Shown one piece after another: positions 42,695-47,314 of a DNA stretch of 47,812 nt. The notes under the pieces are model-generated. The model made no database searches. It worked only from the letters and a program-made list of their open reading frames with translations, and was not told the DNA's origin. How positions within the stretch are numbered: position 1 is the stretch's first letter; every line of letters starts with the position of its first letter. Position numbers and translations under genes: made by a program. Source of the stretch: Oscillospiraceae bacterium (lineage in GTDB: Bacteria; Bacillota; Clostridia; Oscillospirales; Ruminococcaceae); contig JAFQBH010000025.1 of the NCBI GenBank assembly GCA_017399765.1, forward strand, positions 1-47,812, read 5' to 3'.

Positions 42695-42723
42695 TTGACA
42701 TTTGGTTTTTGCTGTGGTATATT
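42695..42723 (+). promoter_or_regulatory. Single strong promoter of the surface-protein switch
   Basis: Consensus TTGACA (42695-42700) and TATATT (42718-42723) are separated by 17 bases. It lies about 140 bases outside the left inverted repeat, so it stays fixed if the segment between the repeats inverts. Confidence 0.9.
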
Positions 42724-42729
42724 ATGGTC

Positions 42730-42892
42730 GTGATAAATGTTACAAATTGGTTAAAAAGTTTGTAACCAAACATAACTCTCCGATGGGTTAACAAACCGAG
42801 CATTTATCACCGTTAACGATTGGATTTGTCCGAATGGAGAGACGGACTTTTCTGATAATTGCTCAAAAAAATATTTTAGGAGGAAACTAAAC
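42730..42892 (+). promoter_or_regulatory. Long structured 5' leader of the surface-protein mRNA
   Basis: The leader is about 160 bases. GTGATAAATG and CATTTATCAC (42730-42739, 42801-42810) pair at its 5' end. GTTACAAA/TTTGTAAC (42739-42766) is an alternative inner stem. GTCCG/CGGAC (42828-42832, 42843-42847) carries the 10-base loop AATGGAGAGA. CTCTCC at 42776-42781 can pair with that loop. Such leaders stabilise abundant surface-layer-type mRNAs; that function here is inference. The ribosome binding site TAGGAGGAAA is at 42877-42886. Confidence 0.7.
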
Positions 42893-42985
42893 ATGAAAAA
42901 AGCACTTGCTCTTGTTCTTGCTCTTGTTCTTGCTCTCAGCATGGGCGTTTCTGCTTTCGCAGAACTCGTTGAACTCGACAGAGTT
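42862..42985 (+). repeat. Left arm of a perfect 124-bp inverted repeat
   Basis: This stretch is identical to the reverse complement of 46081-46204. It covers 31 bases before the start codon including the ribosome binding site, and the first 31 codons of the surface protein. Identity stops sharply at both ends (G against T outside, T against C inside). It holds a 12-bp tandem repeat in the signal peptide code and a TTTAG-7 bp-CTAAA motif at 42875-42891. Confidence 0.96.
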
Positions 42986-44335
42986 TATCCCGAAGCTGAC
43001 GAACCTATCGAAATCGAAGTAATCGATGTTGAAGATGAAGAAGTTATTCTTTACACCTATCCCCTTTGGGACGAACTCACCGATTCTTTCGTAACCTACA
43101 TTGCTCTTGATCCTACCGTTCCTTTTGTTGACGTAAAACTCACTGCTAACGGCAATGTTGATGCAGAGCTTGTAGAATTCGATCCTGACACCATGGTAGC
43201 TCTTGGCGATCTTGAACTCACCTACTCCATCCTTTACAAAGGCGAAGTTCCCACCGCTCCTATCATGTTCTCTGAATCCGTTGACGTAGAACTCGATTAC
43301 TTCAATGGCGTAGAAACCACCATCGATGGTGTTGACGTTTTCGAAGGCCACACCTACAACGATGCTCAGATCCTTGCTGGTCTTATCAGAGATGAACTCA
43401 GAGTTTCCAAAGCTGTTGTTGATGTTGATTGCGAACAGTATGTAAACATCATCAAAGTTACTGTTGAAAACAACTTCTCTGCTCATTACACTGAAGGCAC
43501 CCTCAAAATCGAAGCTAAAAACGCTGCAAACAAAAAGAACTATTCTAACACCCTTACTCTTATCAACGACGTAGCTATCTTCGAATATGAAGAAGTTAAA
43601 TACGCTGCTGACAACAACGAAGACGGCGCAACCCTTCAGCTCGGTGCTGCTGGTTATTCTGACTATGTAACCGATGAATGGGGCTATGGTCCTGAATACA
43701 ACGAAGATGTTCTTCGTAACCCTGAACTCTACGCTCTCGTAGTATCCACCACTGCTTTCCGTGCAATCGAAGGCAAAGACCTCACCCTTGACGTTCTTGC
43801 TAACGACGATATGGAAATCTCTGTAACCCTTAAAGAAGTTGCAAAAGGCCAGAAAGGCGTAAACTTCTTCGCATGGGGCGATTACACCTTCGAAGATAAA
43901 GACGAAAACGGCGTAAAGAACGGTTCTGAAGACTTCGAAAGCATCTCCTTCGGCTTCATGGGCGACCAGGTTGTTAAAGGCAAATTCGAAATCGTTGTTG
44001 ACCTTCCTATCGACTACTATGAACTCCGTGAACTCTTCGGTGAAAAAGTAGAAGAAGAAGACATCATCTCTTACTATGTAGTAAACCAGAACAACGAAGT
44101 TGTTAAAACCATCAAAGTTGACTACATGACTTTCGATCCTTCCGAAAACGTTGAATTCACCATCGAAGGCGAAAACGAAAAACTCGGTTGGTACACTCTT
44201 GCTCTTGAAGTTCCTTCTGCTGAAGTTGAAGGTGAAGAAAACCCCAACACCGGTGCTGAATCTGTTGTTGGCGTAGTTGCTGCTCTTGCAGTAGTTTCTC
44301 TTGCATCTGCTGCTGCTGTTTCCCTCAAAAAATAA
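42893..44335 (+). CDS. Sortase-anchored surface protein A, in the expressed orientation
   Basis: This 480-residue protein has a signal peptide (cleavage after SAFA, about residue 23) and a large acidic beta-rich domain of unknown family. A C-terminal sorting signal follows: NPNTG at 450-454, a hydrophobic stretch and Lys-Lys at the end. NPxTG motifs are sortase signals in several Clostridia. Codon choice is strongly biased, as in the atp genes, which suggests high output. It lies behind the fixed promoter and leader. The paralogue B (44707-46173) shares its first 31 residues exactly and much of its C-terminal half; the most divergent parts are near residues 32-75, 120-160 and 255-275. Ligand and role are unknown. 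Confidence 0.88.
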   Translation: MKKALALVLALVLALSMGVSAFAELVELDRVYPEADEPIEIEVIDVEDEEVILYTYPLWDELTDSFVTYIALDPTVPFVDVKLTANGNVDAELVEFDPDTMVALGDLELTYSILYKGEVPTAPIMFSESVDVELDYFNGVETTIDGVDVFEGHTYNDAQILAGLIRDELRVSKAVVDVDCEQYVNIIKVTVENNFSAHYTEGTLKIEAKNAANKKNYSNTLTLINDVAIFEYEEVKYAADNNEDGATLQLGAAGYSDYVTDEWGYGPEYNEDVLRNPELYALVVSTTAFRAIEGKDLTLDVLANDDMEISVTLKEVAKGQKGVNFFAWGDYTFEDKDENGVKNGSEDFESISFGFMGDQVVKGKFEIVVDLPIDYYELRELFGEKVEEEDIISYYVVNQNNEVVKTIKVDYMTFDPSENVEFTIEGENEKLGWYTLALEVPSAEVEGEENPNTGAESVVGVVAALAVVSLASAAAVSLKK

Positions 44336-44373
44336 TTTTTGACCGAAATAGTCAAAGCTTCTAACTAAACAAT

Positions 44374-44410
44374 AAAAATCCCCCGGAACTCTCCATCCGG
44401 GGGATTTTTT
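44374..44410 (+). terminator. Terminator of surface gene A
   Basis: AAAAATCCCCCGG and CCGGGGGATTTTT (44374-44386, 44397-44409) enclose the 10-base loop AACTCTCCAT. The last eight loop bases are complementary to the loop of the leader hairpin (42834-42841). Confidence 0.93.
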
Positions 44411-44635
44411 CTTATAAAATGGCTTTATTGCAAGAAAAAATACAAATATTTGCAGCCGAAAAATAATGGGAAACTGCTGAACGCAAAATTGGACTTTTGC
44501 TGGGTTGCCAGTGAAATATGGCTGAAAAAGTCAGCTTTATTAAAAAAGATTTTTACTTTAAGTAAAAATACGGATATTTAGCTGCACAGTGGACAGTTTG
44601 TAGTACACCGTTTCACGGTGCGGATATTAATAAAT
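44411..44635. other. Intergenic stretch between the two surface-gene terminators
   Basis: No gene is seen. It contains an AT-rich inverted repeat TTTTTACTT/AAGTAAAAA near 44550-44570 and a small CACCG/CGGTG hairpin near 44610-44624. It lies at the centre of the predicted invertible segment. Confidence 0.6.
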
Positions 44636-44673
44636 AAAAAAGTCCCCGGATGGAGAGTTCCGGGGACTTTTTA
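44636..44673 (-). terminator. Terminator of surface gene B
   Basis: On the minus strand the stem is AAAAAGTCCCCGG/CCGGGGACTTTTT with the same loop AACTCTCCAT as terminator A. Two stem pairs differ from terminator A, and both partners changed so that pairing is kept. Confidence 0.92.
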
Positions 44674-44706
44674 ATTAGCTTTAAAGTTCAACTGTTTCAG
44701 TCAGAA

Positions 44707-46173
44707 TTATTTTTTGAGGGAAACAGCAGCAGCAGATGCAAGAGAAACAACTGCAAGAGCAGCAACTACGCCAACAACAGATTCAGCACCGGTGTTGGGG
44801 TTTTCTTCGCCTTCAACTTCAGCTGCAGGAGCTTCGAGAGCGATGGTGTACCAACCGAGTTTTTCGTTTTCGCCTTTGATAACGAGTTCAACGTTTTCGG
44901 AAGGATCGTAGGTCATGTAGTCAACAGTGAAGGAATCGAATGCTACACCGTTTTTGAGTACATAGTAGGTTACGATGTCGTCTTCTTCAACTTTTTCGCC
45001 GAAGAATTCGCGGAGTTCATAGTAATCGATAGGAAGGTCAACAACGATTTCGAATTCGCCTTTGATAATCTGATCGCCCATGAAGCCAAAGGAAGCTGCT
45101 ACGAGTTCGTCGTTAGCATAATCAGGCTGATCACCGTCGTTGTCGTCTTTGTCATCGATTTCGAGATCGCCCCATGCGAAGAAGTTTACGCCTTTCTGGC
45201 CTTTTGCAATTTCTTTAAGGGTTACAGAGATTTCCATGTCGTCATCGGAAAGAACGTCAAGAGTGAGGTCTTTGCCTTCGATTGCACGGAAAGCGGTGGT
45301 GGATACTACGAGAGCATCTTCCCAAGTGCGGAGATAATCTTCGTCGTATTTGTTGTCGCCTGCGTCATAACCGTATTCATCGGTTACATAGTCGGAGTAA
45401 CCAGCAGCACCGAGCTGGAGGGTTGCGCCGTCTTCGTTGTTTTCAGCAGCGTATTTAACTTCTTCATATTCGAAGATGCAAACGTCGTTGATGAGTTCAA
45501 TGGTGGTTGCATAAGCTTTTTTGTTAGCAGCGTTGGTTGCTTCAATTTTGAGAGTGCCTTCAGTGTAGTGTGCAGAGAAGTTGTTCTCGATGGTGAGTTT
45601 GATGATGTTTACATACTGTTCGCATTCAACATCAACGATACCTTTGGAAACTTTTTTGTCAGCTCTGATGAGGCCAGCAAGGGTCTGAGCATCATTGTAG
45701 GACCAACCAGTGAAGTTGTCGATGGTGAGGATGTCGATTTCTGCGTCAGCAGCTTCAAGATAAACATCTTCTGCTACTTCTTTGAGGGTGTAGGGAGCTT
45801 CAAGAACTTCACCTTTGTACATTACAGAGTAGGTGAGGTTGAGAGCGCCGAGAGCTACCATGGTTTCGGGATCGAATTCTACGAGCTCTGCATCGAGGTT
45901 GCCGTTAGCGGTGAGTTTTACGTCAACATAAGGAACGGTAGGATCGAGAGCGATGTAGGTTACGAAATCTTTACCAAGTTTTGCGTCATCTTCAGTGATG
46001 ATAGGTCTGGTGTAAACGAGATATTCTTCTTCCTGCATATCGAATACAACGAGTTCTGCAGGTTCGTCTTCTTCGGGACGAACTCTGTCGAGTTCAACGA
46101 GTTCTGCGAAAGCAGAAACGCCCATGCTGAGAGCAAGAACAAGAGCAAGAACAAGAGCAAGTGCTTTTTTCAT
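44707..46173 (-). CDS. Sortase-anchored surface protein B, in the promoterless orientation
   Basis: This 488-residue paralogue of protein A has an identical signal peptide and first 31 residues, a related acidic beta-rich domain and an identical C-terminal sorting signal (NPNTG at about 458-462). Differences concentrate near residues 32-80, 120-165 and 260-285, and one insert (about 330-345) is Asp-rich. ATG 46173 is chosen because TAGGAGG lies just upstream, within the repeat; a longer frame to 46221 runs into the recombinase gene end. No promoter lies in the 37 bases up to the recombinase stop, so only read-through could express it in this orientation. Confidence 0.87.
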   Translation of the reverse strand: MKKALALVLALVLALSMGVSAFAELVELDRVRPEEDEPAELVVFDMQEEEYLVYTRPIITEDDAKLGKDFVTYIALDPTVPYVDVKLTANGNLDAELVEFDPETMVALGALNLTYSVMYKGEVLEAPYTLKEVAEDVYLEAADAEIDILTIDNFTGWSYNDAQTLAGLIRADKKVSKGIVDVECEQYVNIIKLTIENNFSAHYTEGTLKIEATNAANKKAYATTIELINDVCIFEYEEVKYAAENNEDGATLQLGAAGYSDYVTDEYGYDAGDNKYDEDYLRTWEDALVVSTTAFRAIEGKDLTLDVLSDDDMEISVTLKEIAKGQKGVNFFAWGDLEIDDKDDNDGDQPDYANDELVAASFGFMGDQIIKGEFEIVVDLPIDYYELREFFGEKVEEDDIVTYYVLKNGVAFDSFTVDYMTYDPSENVELVIKGENEKLGWYTIALEAPAAEVEGEENPNTGAESVVGVVAALAVVSLASAAAVSLKK

Positions 46174-46204
46174 GTTTAGTTTCCTCCTAAAATATTTTTT
46201 TGAG
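46081..46204 (-). repeat. Right arm of the perfect 124-bp inverted repeat
   Basis: This arm is the reverse complement of 42862-42985 over all 124 bases. Its outer edge lies six bases from the recombinase stop codon. It covers the ribosome binding site and first 31 codons of gene B. Confidence 0.96.
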
Positions 46205-46210
46205 AGAAAG

Positions 46211-47314
46211 CTAAAAAACACCTGCGATTTTTTCCATTTCCGAAGCCCTTGTTTCGGGCATTACATGGCTGTAAAGATCCATTGTCATTGCAAGGGAACT
46301 GTGACCGAGAATTGTTTTGAGCACCTGGGGCGACATTCCGGCTTCAATTGCGCGGGTGGCAAAGGTGTGACGAAAAACATGTGGAGTTATGTGCTCGAAA
46401 TTATAGCCGTGCTCATTTATTCTTGCGGTTATGCGATCGAGTTCGGTCTGAACAAAATCACGACTTAACGGAGAACAGCCTTTTCCTTTGAAAACGTAAC
46501 CGGAAGGCAGGGAAGAATCTTTTTGCGAATCAAGCAGAGAAATAATATCGGGGGTTAAGGGGATGTCTCTTAAAGATGAATTTGTCTTTGGAGTGTCTTC
46601 GAAATATCCGCGGCCGTCGATATACTTTATGGTGCGGCGAACGTGAAGAACATTTTTTTCAAGATCGATATCACTGAATTTCAGTCCGCGGAGTTCGCCG
46701 TTGCGAAGACCGGTTCTTAAGAGAACTGCAAAAAATTCATAGAGCCGGCTTTCTTTTGAAAACTCGGTAAAAATTTTTTGCTGTTCCTTCGTAAGAGCGG
46801 AACGGCGGTTTGGAGCGGTCCTTCTTGGGAGCTGGACCGAAACGGCGGGGTTGCGTTCGAGCATTCCGTTGTACATTGCCTGGCGAAGGCTGCTGTTTAT
46901 TAAAGAAAACACTATTTTTATTGTTGAATAGGCGTATTCTTTTTCTGCAAGACGGTTTATAAGAATCTGGATATCGGTGCTTCTGATGTTGCAAAGCGGT
47001 ATATTTCCCAGATCGGAAAAAATAAGGCTTTTATAAAATTGGCGATAGGTTTCGTAAGTTCCGATTTTAATGCGGAATTTTCTATACTCATCCAGCCAGA
47101 CACAAAACCATTCGTCGAAAGTGGCTCGGGAATTTTCTGCGAAAATTCCACGGGAAAGCTTGTAACGCAGTTCGGTAAGCTTTTGCTGTGTTTCGGTTAC
47201 GGTTTTTCCGTGAACAGAATGGGTTTTGCCGTTTATTGTGGCGCGCCCTTCAAATGATTTTCCGCGCTGACGGATTCCTTTCGGAAGTTTTCTTCCGCGC
47301 TGATCTTTTGCCAT
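46211..47314 (-). CDS. Tyrosine site-specific recombinase (integrase family)
   Basis: This 367-residue recombinase has an N-terminal arm-binding-type domain (GRKLPKGIRQRGKSFEGRA) as in Tn916-like integrases. A core-binding domain lies at about 60-155 and the catalytic domain at about 170-367. The active-site set is complete: Arg204 (TGLRNGE), Lys243, His312 and Arg315 (HVFRH), His338 (LGHSS) and Tyr348 (DLYSHV). No excisionase, relaxase or phage gene is near, so it does not look like part of a mobile element. It ends six bases from the right inverted repeat and is the obvious candidate inverting enzyme. AAGGAGG precedes the ATG. Its transcript should read into gene B. Confidence 0.93.
   Translation of the reverse strand: MAKDQRGRKLPKGIRQRGKSFEGRATINGKTHSVHGKTVTETQQKLTELRYKLSRGIFAENSRATFDEWFCVWLDEYRKFRIKIGTYETYRQFYKSLIFSDLGNIPLCNIRSTDIQILINRLAEKEYAYSTIKIVFSLINSSLRQAMYNGMLERNPAVSVQLPRRTAPNRRSALTKEQQKIFTEFSKESRLYEFFAVLLRTGLRNGELRGLKFSDIDLEKNVLHVRRTIKYIDGRGYFEDTPKTNSSLRDIPLTPDIISLLDSQKDSSLPSGYVFKGKGCSPLSRDFVQTELDRITARINEHGYNFEHITPHVFRHTFATRAIEAGMSPQVLKTILGHSSLAMTMDLYSHVMPETRASEMEKIAGVF

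Follow-up and report, generated by a model that had tools for sequence, protein, structure and literature searches.

In the 47,812-nucleotide stretch of Oscillospiraceae DNA analysed here (the window), two genes for paralogous surface proteins carry a pair of inverted repeat arms and adjoin a tyrosine recombinase gene, an arrangement that is best read as a switch in which DNA inversion probably determines which of the two proteins is made. In the mechanism that we propose, an integrase-derived recombinase would recombine two inverted sites at the ribosome binding site (RBS) regions of gene A and gene B, inverting a segment of ~3.3 kb with both genes and both of their terminators, while the promoter and a structured leader would remain outside. 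The gene at the left end would then be strongly transcribed with the common RBS and signal peptide, and the other gene would sit behind the recombinase gene, essentially silent. From the sequence, we infer that the local recombinase performs the inversion, that inversion occurs at present and that B is presently silent.

Paired surface genes, repeat arms and RNA signals

Gene A (42893..44335, plus strand) encodes a protein of 480 aa with a signal peptide and a C-terminal NPNTG tail and currently lies behind the promoter. Its paralogue, gene B (44707..46173, minus strand), for which a strong promoter was not found, encodes 488 aa. The two genes are convergent and their products share 75% amino acid identity. 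The left arm of the inverted repeat (42862..42985, plus strand) holds the site, the RBS, the start codon and the signal peptide, and it matches the right arm (46081..46204, minus strand) over 124 bp with 0 mismatches, which bears out a preliminary description of convergent paralogues that share a perfect inverted repeat extending from the RBS through the start codon into the signal peptide. Beyond the arms, the adjoining 120 nt are 25% identical between the two sides, as in unrelated flanks. Inverted paralogous surface genes with a common 5' sequence were found here and in a second species of the genus (G007).

The putative core site of the recombinase, CTCAAAAAAATATTTTAGGAGGA, lies at 42862..42884 (plus strand) and includes the RBS AGGAGG (42878-42883). 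Its position is suggested by the start of the repeat, which coincides here in both species that carry the pair, and by the symmetric arms, CTCCTAAA/TTTAGGAG, of the copy on the recombinase side in G007. The core-site pattern occurs only twice in its own genome (≤1 mismatch).

A sigma-70-type promoter, TTGACA-17-TATATT, in which a TG precedes the -10 element, lies outside the invertible segment at 42695..42723 (plus strand) and scores 11/12. TTGACA-N17-TATATT is present at 11/11 syntenic loci. As had been proposed, no other strong promoter was found to face into the pair, so that consensus search and conservation agree on one promoter, located beyond the inverted segment. The same search found no promoter-like site above 9/12 for the recombinase or B; the sole minus-strand candidate upstream of B scores 9/12 and lies inside the recombinase ORF. 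Promoter-like sites numbered 13 in the whole window, compared to 8.6 ± 2.9 in shuffled sequences, and lone weak sites therefore mean little.

Downstream of the promoter and also outside the invertible segment, the leader contains a hairpin (42828..42847, plus strand; loop AATGGAGAGA), the stem of which varies in sequence while its pairing is mostly kept in an 11-species alignment (columns 131-135/147-151). The leader loop is complementary to the loops of the terminator hairpins, and the terminator loop is the same for A (44374..44409, plus strand; conserved loop AACTCTCCAT) and B (44637..44672; loop AACTCTCCAT on the minus strand). This complementarity, together with a base-pair difference in the loops between two paralogue groups, suggests a 5'-3' contact within these mRNAs.

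Both surface proteins end in NPNTG followed by a hydrophobic stretch and KK. The preliminary description had called them sortase-anchored, which is plausible: NPNTG is invariant in 13/13 aligned family members and the genome has 10 sortase-domain matches, while the NCBIfam NPXTG-anchored model (NF033846) scores 15 bits, below its curated cut-off of 23.5. Profile searches of Pfam and PDB found no known fold for the protein, its family was confined to one genus in the sample searched, and a search of IMG/VR with gene A, made to look for the alternative orientation, yielded no relative among its 9 pattern matches. The protein is probably abundant or dominant at the surface.

The recombinase and its relatives

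The recombinase gene (46211..47314, minus strand; 367 aa) is intact and stops 6 bases short of the right arm. Its product matches Phage_integrase (PF00589) at 2.4e-27 and contains R204, K243, H312, R315, H338 and Y348, which are conserved among aligned relatives and which we take to be the catalytic residues; Y348 is present in 34/35 aligned sequences, the exception being that of G012. Domain match and residues thus identify a tyrosine recombinase of the integrase type abutting the right arm, in agreement with the earlier description. Comparison with the G014 enzyme gave a dN/dS of 0.08, indicating purifying selection. The closest relatives outside the genus are Lachnospiraceae proteins of the integrase type (50-58% identical), and the PDB match was to the Int protein 6emy/6en0/6emz (2.6e-29), presumably the Tn1549 integrase. 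These proteins belong to the same sequence family as the enzyme here. In contrast to the Lachnospiraceae integrases, however, its gene adjoins inverted sites and is not accompanied by element genes: about 430 bp without such genes separate its start from the S10 leader, and the surface gene B lies on the other side. Element genes between the integrase and a second att site, as in an integrative and conjugative element, were thus not found.

We examined 45 of 79 recombinase loci for exact inverted repeats, 42 of them outside the genus and some ending at a contig edge. None of the loci outside the genus had an exact inverted repeat of at least 16 nt, a search that shorter or imperfect repeats escape, and the nearest relatives of the recombinase therefore show no sign of being invertases. 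Among all 45, the G007 locus (L075) was clear; a 16-nt repeat on the G012 contig (L085), with copies 555 apart, was taken as noise, and the other 43 had none. The centre of the G007 locus also holds an exact 11-bp pair of arm-type repeats, similar in form, by eye, to those next to some Lachnospiraceae integrase genes. The scanned stretches of G014 and of the genome studied here (G000) contained no arm-type repeat at ≤1 mismatch except an A-rich one upstream of the recombinase in the latter. Integrase arm sites are left out of our claim because the exact pair occurs in G007 only.

Comparison within the genus and alternative readings

At a cut-off of E ≤ 1e-40, the recombinase was present in 4 of 15 genomes of the genus, every time at this locus. 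The four proteins form one clade (100/99) among integrase-like proteins, in a tree that conflicts with the species tree. G007 has the same convergent pair and adjacent recombinase with different sequences and a 72-bp exact repeat, which begins at the same point before the RBS as in G000. The nearest relatives of the two G007 copies are each other, as is also the case for A and B. In G012, a sister species, there is no gene B, and the recombinase, encoded on a separate contig together with the S10 flank, lacks its N-terminal part and the conserved tyrosine. This joint loss counts for the switch, whereas G014, with an intact recombinase beside a single surface gene, counts against it. The reverse orientation was not seen among these genomes, one per species.

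Codon adaptation was similar in B (0.841), A (0.838) and the two G007 copies (0.849 and 0.841), close to that of HU (0.863), and it was 0.434 in the recombinase. When neutral drift was simulated across half of the synonymous changes between A and B, the value fell to 0.737 ± 0.013. Thus B, with no strong promoter found, is codon-optimised like A and ribosomal genes, far above the expectation for silent drift. The A/B switch of the preliminary description accordingly has in its favour the anatomy of the locus, the arrangement in G007, selection on the recombinase, the codon adaptation of B and the joint decay in G012; the single gene of G014 does not fit it.

The recombinase is absent (E ≤ 1e-40) from 7 of the 11 species with the syntenic gene, and the DNA of their RBS and signal peptide is still similar, so that part of the arm identity is ordinary conservation. 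Over the 94 nt from the RBS site to the signal peptide, four compared species without the enzyme differ from A at 3-8 positions. Over the following 24 nt, the same four differ at 17-21 positions, G012 at 6 and B at 0. The two arms differ at 0/118 compared positions despite an A/B dS of 0.43, larger than the 0.155 obtained for a flanking gene when sister species are compared, and we therefore consider the arms to be recently homogenised, that is, recombining. This homogenisation beyond the core, and the 3' halves of the G007 gene pair, which are 94% identical, point to homologous recombination or gene conversion also being at work.

As an alternative, inversion could be real but driven by homologous recombination of the RecA type acting on the long arms, with the recombinase a bystander from an old integration, and this would suit the 124-bp arms and long paralogous stretches, the homogenised 3' halves in G007 and the apparent resemblance of the enzyme's relatives to integrases of elements. 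We consider it unlikely, since the enzyme is under strong purifying selection with no element genes up to the S10 leader, four relatives occupy the same place, and G012 shows damage to both the enzyme and the pair. Somewhat less likely still, B could be a mostly silent donor from which gene conversion alters A in a fixed orientation. A and B resemble other species in a mosaic fashion, which, like the homogenised blocks in the G000 arms and the G007 3' half, agrees with a donor, but one that is silent should have lost its codon optimisation over a dS of 0.43, which B kept, and the recombinase would be left without a role.

It is improbable that A and B are simply co-expressed without a switch, B being transcribed together with the recombinase or from a promoter that went unnoticed. 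B does start 37 nt past the recombinase stop in the same direction, and codon adaptation is at the ribosomal level in both genes; that of the recombinase is low, however, the best site for the recombinase or B reaches only 9/12, and the conserved promoter is on the left in 11/11 species. We give very little weight to B and the recombinase being a recent functionless import, too young for decay. The same arrangement in G007, with copies mutually nearest like A and B, and purifying selection on the enzyme argue against an import, although the locus is hyperdivergent between sister species (dS of 0.65 for A and its G012 counterpart, as compared to 0.155 for a MATE-type gene), the recombinase and species trees conflict, and the 3' flanks differ slightly in nearest relative: for A, identity is 90.7% to G014 (75 nt) and 83.8% to G005 (80 nt), and for B it is 84.4% to G005 (77 nt) and 85.1% to G014, the last over only 47 nt. 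Unrelated duplication is less likely, given that two species share the point at which the repeat begins. At the G012 junction, the RBS site looks to have been joined by deletion to the sequence at the stop codon, which had raised the idea of mobile cassettes, each made up of one gene with a site at either end. This was set aside, as species that lack the enzyme also conserve the 3' sequence and deletion at a short repeat accounts for the junction equally well.

Known inversion systems and implications of the proposed switch

That the preliminary description did not recognise the arrangement does not make its principle novel: single-promoter inversion switches of surface genes such as Vpma and slpA/slpB are already known in other bacteria, and it is the parts and the lineage that are new. 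Inversions of Moraxella pilin and Campylobacter fetus S-layer genes are analogues. As described in PMC2268961, the Vpma family of surface-protein genes in Mycoplasma agalactiae is served by one promoter, and its locus also encodes the tyrosine recombinase Xer1. Recombination sites immediately precede the start codons (-1 to -72), terminators follow the genes, and inversions demonstrated experimentally place one gene at the promoter. The A/B locus is similar in layout, with a single promoter, a local tyrosine recombinase, putative pre-start sites and terminators. Vpma comprises six lipoprotein genes and Xer1, whereas here there are two NPNTG-tailed proteins and an integrase-type recombinase, and inversion is predicted from the DNA.

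In Lactobacillus acidophilus, of slpA and slpB, two genes for a dominant surface protein, one is active and one silent, and a chromosomal inversion swaps them, an interchange observed experimentally by Boot et al. 1996 (cited in PMC7858073 and PMC6176008). An exchange of such a gene pair by inversion is what we propose for A and B. The slp proteins are of another family, in contrast to the sortase-type tail here, and the slpA/slpB passages of these two papers describe no recombinase. In Clostridioides difficile, also a clostridial gut bacterium, RecV drives on/off inversion of a 195-bp segment without an ORF between imperfect 21-bp repeats at cwpV, and recV is not adjacent (PMC2784873, passages on the switch). 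Recombinase-driven control of a cell-wall protein with the promoter outside the inverted segment would be common to both; here, the segment between the arms contains two complete ORFs, and whole genes would invert, giving A/B instead of on/off. The passages on invertible segments in PMC5903667 and PMC11892184 do not describe the A/B locus.

A more speculative possibility, to which we give a low probability, is that the integrase of a mobile element became a resident surface-gene switch, with the host RBS serving as one arm of the crossover site, and that an RNA layer enforces expression of one gene: only the leader-bearing mRNA would have a 5' hairpin able to pair with the terminator hairpin of the same molecule, and only this message would be stabilised. 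We infer that the benefit of switching is escape from phage or host immunity. If the proposed switch is real, a recombinase of integrase origin in gut Oscillospiraceae would switch a surface protein that is probably dominant and whose family has been little studied, an example of an integrase becoming a local invertase. The orientation of one 3.3-kb segment would then be a clear marker, readable in existing gut metagenomes, by which surface switching in uncultured bacteria could be tracked.

Layout of the locus

The window is the entire contig C24 (47,812 bp) of a genome, G000, that is 88% complete and comprises 1.83 Mb in 44 contigs. Relatives in the public collection are recorded as 'Oscillospiraceae bacterium' from deer gut, including G014 (RGIG8954), G007 (RGIG4531) and G012 (RGIG8734). 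From left to right, the locus contains a MATE-type gene, a MazG-type gene, HU and an S4-domain gene (all four names were assigned by eye), a promoter and leader, surface-protein gene A (42893-44335, + strand), two terminators, gene B (44707-46173, − strand), the tyrosine recombinase gene (46211-47314, − strand) and the S10 leader RF03136. The preliminary description of A and B as convergent paralogues was borne out: B is reversed, and the two proteins (480 and 488 aa) are 75% identical, with a signal peptide and an NPNTG-containing tail in common. Its claim of one consensus promoter outside the left repeat arm also held. This promoter (42695-42723) matches the consensus at 11 of 12 positions and has TG before the -10 element, while a scan upstream of B returned just one 9/12 site, within the recombinase gene. 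The promoter arrangement TTGACA-N17-TATATT was present in all 11 syntenic loci of the genus.

Identity of the repeat arms and codon adaptation

Each arm (42862-42985 and 46081-46204) is the perfect reverse complement of the other over 124 bp, as first described; the adjoining 120 nt on the outer sides share 25% identity and are thus unrelated. Gene A was compared with genes of other species over a 94-nt stretch that starts at the RBS site and extends to the signal peptide, and over the next 24 nt, with G003, G006 and G010 left out of the count. The differences in these two stretches numbered 2 and 6 for the G012 gene, 3 and 21 for G002, 4 and 19 for G014, 5 and 17 for G011, 7 and 17 for G005, 8 and 20 for G009, and 8 and 16 and 12 and 17 for the left- and right-hand genes of G007, respectively. 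The few differences over 94 nt indicate that this stretch is conserved in its own right. In contrast, A and B did not differ at all in either stretch, while outside the arms they have diverged to a dS of 0.43. The arms have thus become identical in recent times, which requires recombination between them.

Codon adaptation, calculated against 13 G014 ribosomal-operon ORFs that were judged ribosomal by eye and by place, was 0.838 for A and 0.841 for B, with HU at 0.863 and the recombinase at 0.434; the G007 pair gave 0.849 and 0.841. When silent drift of B over half of the A/B synonymous changes was simulated in a simple way (100 runs at each step), its value fell to approximately 0.737 ± 0.013. 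These values argue that both A and B have been expressed, and that the gene now on the right was not there all along.

The repeat start was also examined. The G000 repeat starts at CTCAAAAAAATATTTTAGGAGG, and that of G007 at the equivalent position, with AAATAATTT in both copies. The recombinase-side copy in G007, CTCCTAAAAAAATAATTTAGGAG, has symmetric arms, one of which holds the RBS, and G012 and G014 retain similar left arms (TTTCCTCCTAAAA and TTTCCTCTCAAAA) at the recombinase end of the locus. With up to one mismatch, the pattern AAAAAWATWWTTWAGGAGGAAA matched its own genome exactly twice, once per strand, and the control gave 0 matches. From this, we infer that the site at the repeat start is a candidate recombinase core site.

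Distribution, origin and probable exchange of the locus

The surface family was found in all 15 genus genomes (E <= 1e-3, distant paralogues counted). At E <= 1e-15 it occurred in 4 genomes of a 297-genome family-level sample, all of this genus, and thus in 1 of 126 genera. At least 11 of the genus genomes have a syntenic copy next to HU and S4. Leaving the window aside, 10 syntenic loci were compared, and in 9 of them the S10 upstream region follows the surface gene or recombinase, the G006 match spanning 61 nt only; in the tenth, G009, the sequence stops 213 nt after the gene. The recombinase was found in 4 of the 15 genomes (E <= 1e-40), always at the surface-gene locus. Both the gene pair and the enzyme are present in G000 and G007. 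G014 has an intact enzyme and a single surface gene; the enzyme can thus be kept where the pair is missing, or else it serves another role. G012 has a single surface gene and a second terminator region in inverted orientation; its recombinase, on a separate contig carrying the S10 flank, lacks the N-terminal part (tblastn covers 59-367) and has Ser where 34 of 35 sequences have the conserved tyrosine. Between its A-type gene and recombinase lies a repeat-rich stretch (L035:1-720, L050:2400-2872) bordered by this inverted copy, which comprises the 3' flank and terminator of the gene. G012 has no gene B, and at the junction the RBS site's left half is fused to post-stop-codon sequence.

A tree with 31 relatives, of 79 loci fetched, placed the four recombinases in a single clade (100/99) among integrase-type proteins, the majority of which come from Lachnospiraceae; the best solved relatives are the Int proteins 6emy/6en0/6emz. 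Some relatives share neighbour ORFs (the commonest other family occurs in 9 of 28 loci), and a AGTTTTGTTTTACGAGTGGAAGGTCTCGAAC-like sequence was seen by eye in 13 of 32 downstream flanks inspected, which suggests that these relatives are parts of integrative elements. The window's recombinase is no longer accompanied by element genes. The protein has evidently been kept working, since dN/dS between G000 and G014 is 0.08. An exact tandem 11-bp repeat, TTGTCCAACTT, lies between the two G007 genes (L040:9502-9523) and resembles repeats that immediately follow the integrase gene in some Lachnospiraceae loci (L060, L069, L084).

The enzyme tree grouped G000 with G014 (100/100), whereas the flanking-gene tree grouped it with G012 (100/97); the locus therefore probably moved between species. 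Gene A and its G012 counterpart (L035:634-2118) differ by a dS of 0.65, as compared to 0.155 for the MATE-type gene, with protein identities of 67% and 98.8%, respectively. This excess divergence over the neighbours in a sister species points to exchange or strong diversification at the locus.

Leader and terminator loops and the proposed switch

The stem of the leader hairpin (42828-42847) varies, with pairing mostly kept. All 11 main-locus genes have TGGAGAG in the loop of this hairpin, and their terminator loops carry CTCTCCA; in the window, the terminator hairpins lie at 44374-44409 and 44637-44672. The comparison of leader and terminator loops also covers loci L053, L146-L157 and L046. 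In a second, divergent paralogue group (n = 13), nine genes have CGGAGAG/CTCTCCG, three TGGAGAG/CTCTCCG (a G-U pair) and one a mismatch. The terminator motif CCGRAMCTCTCCATYCGG (up to one mismatch) gave 15 matches in 11 of 15 genomes, and none in the control. L046 (G013:C8:1-11713) holds a same-strand array of three divergent family members, two with both loop motifs (one with one mismatch) and one without the leader motif; their terminator loops read CTCTCC in two and ATCTCC in one. Against the pattern, CTCTCC was absent after the gene in six further paralogous ORFs (L158-L162), which stand outside the loop-motif table; L045 and L163 yielded no ORF that passed the filter applied. Letter shuffling gave a probability of 0.036 that the G000 leader would contain a 7-nt complement to the terminator loop by chance; the case for contact is therefore built on conservation together with the T-A/C-G difference, and the latter may reflect a single event. 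A reasonable hypothesis is that the 5' and 3' hairpins of these mRNAs meet loop to loop. Among the literature matches listed, titles and abstract openings described no comparable mRNA 5'-3' case.

Judged from sequence, two-site inversion is the most likely working of the locus. Inversion would swap the gene placed behind the outside promoter and leader; the leader would remain outside the invertible segment, each gene would carry its own terminator along, and the two terminators between A and B would block transcription coming from either side. The proposed A/B inversion would work like the Vpma/Xer1 (PMC2268961) and slpA/slpB (PMC7858073, PMC6176008) systems.
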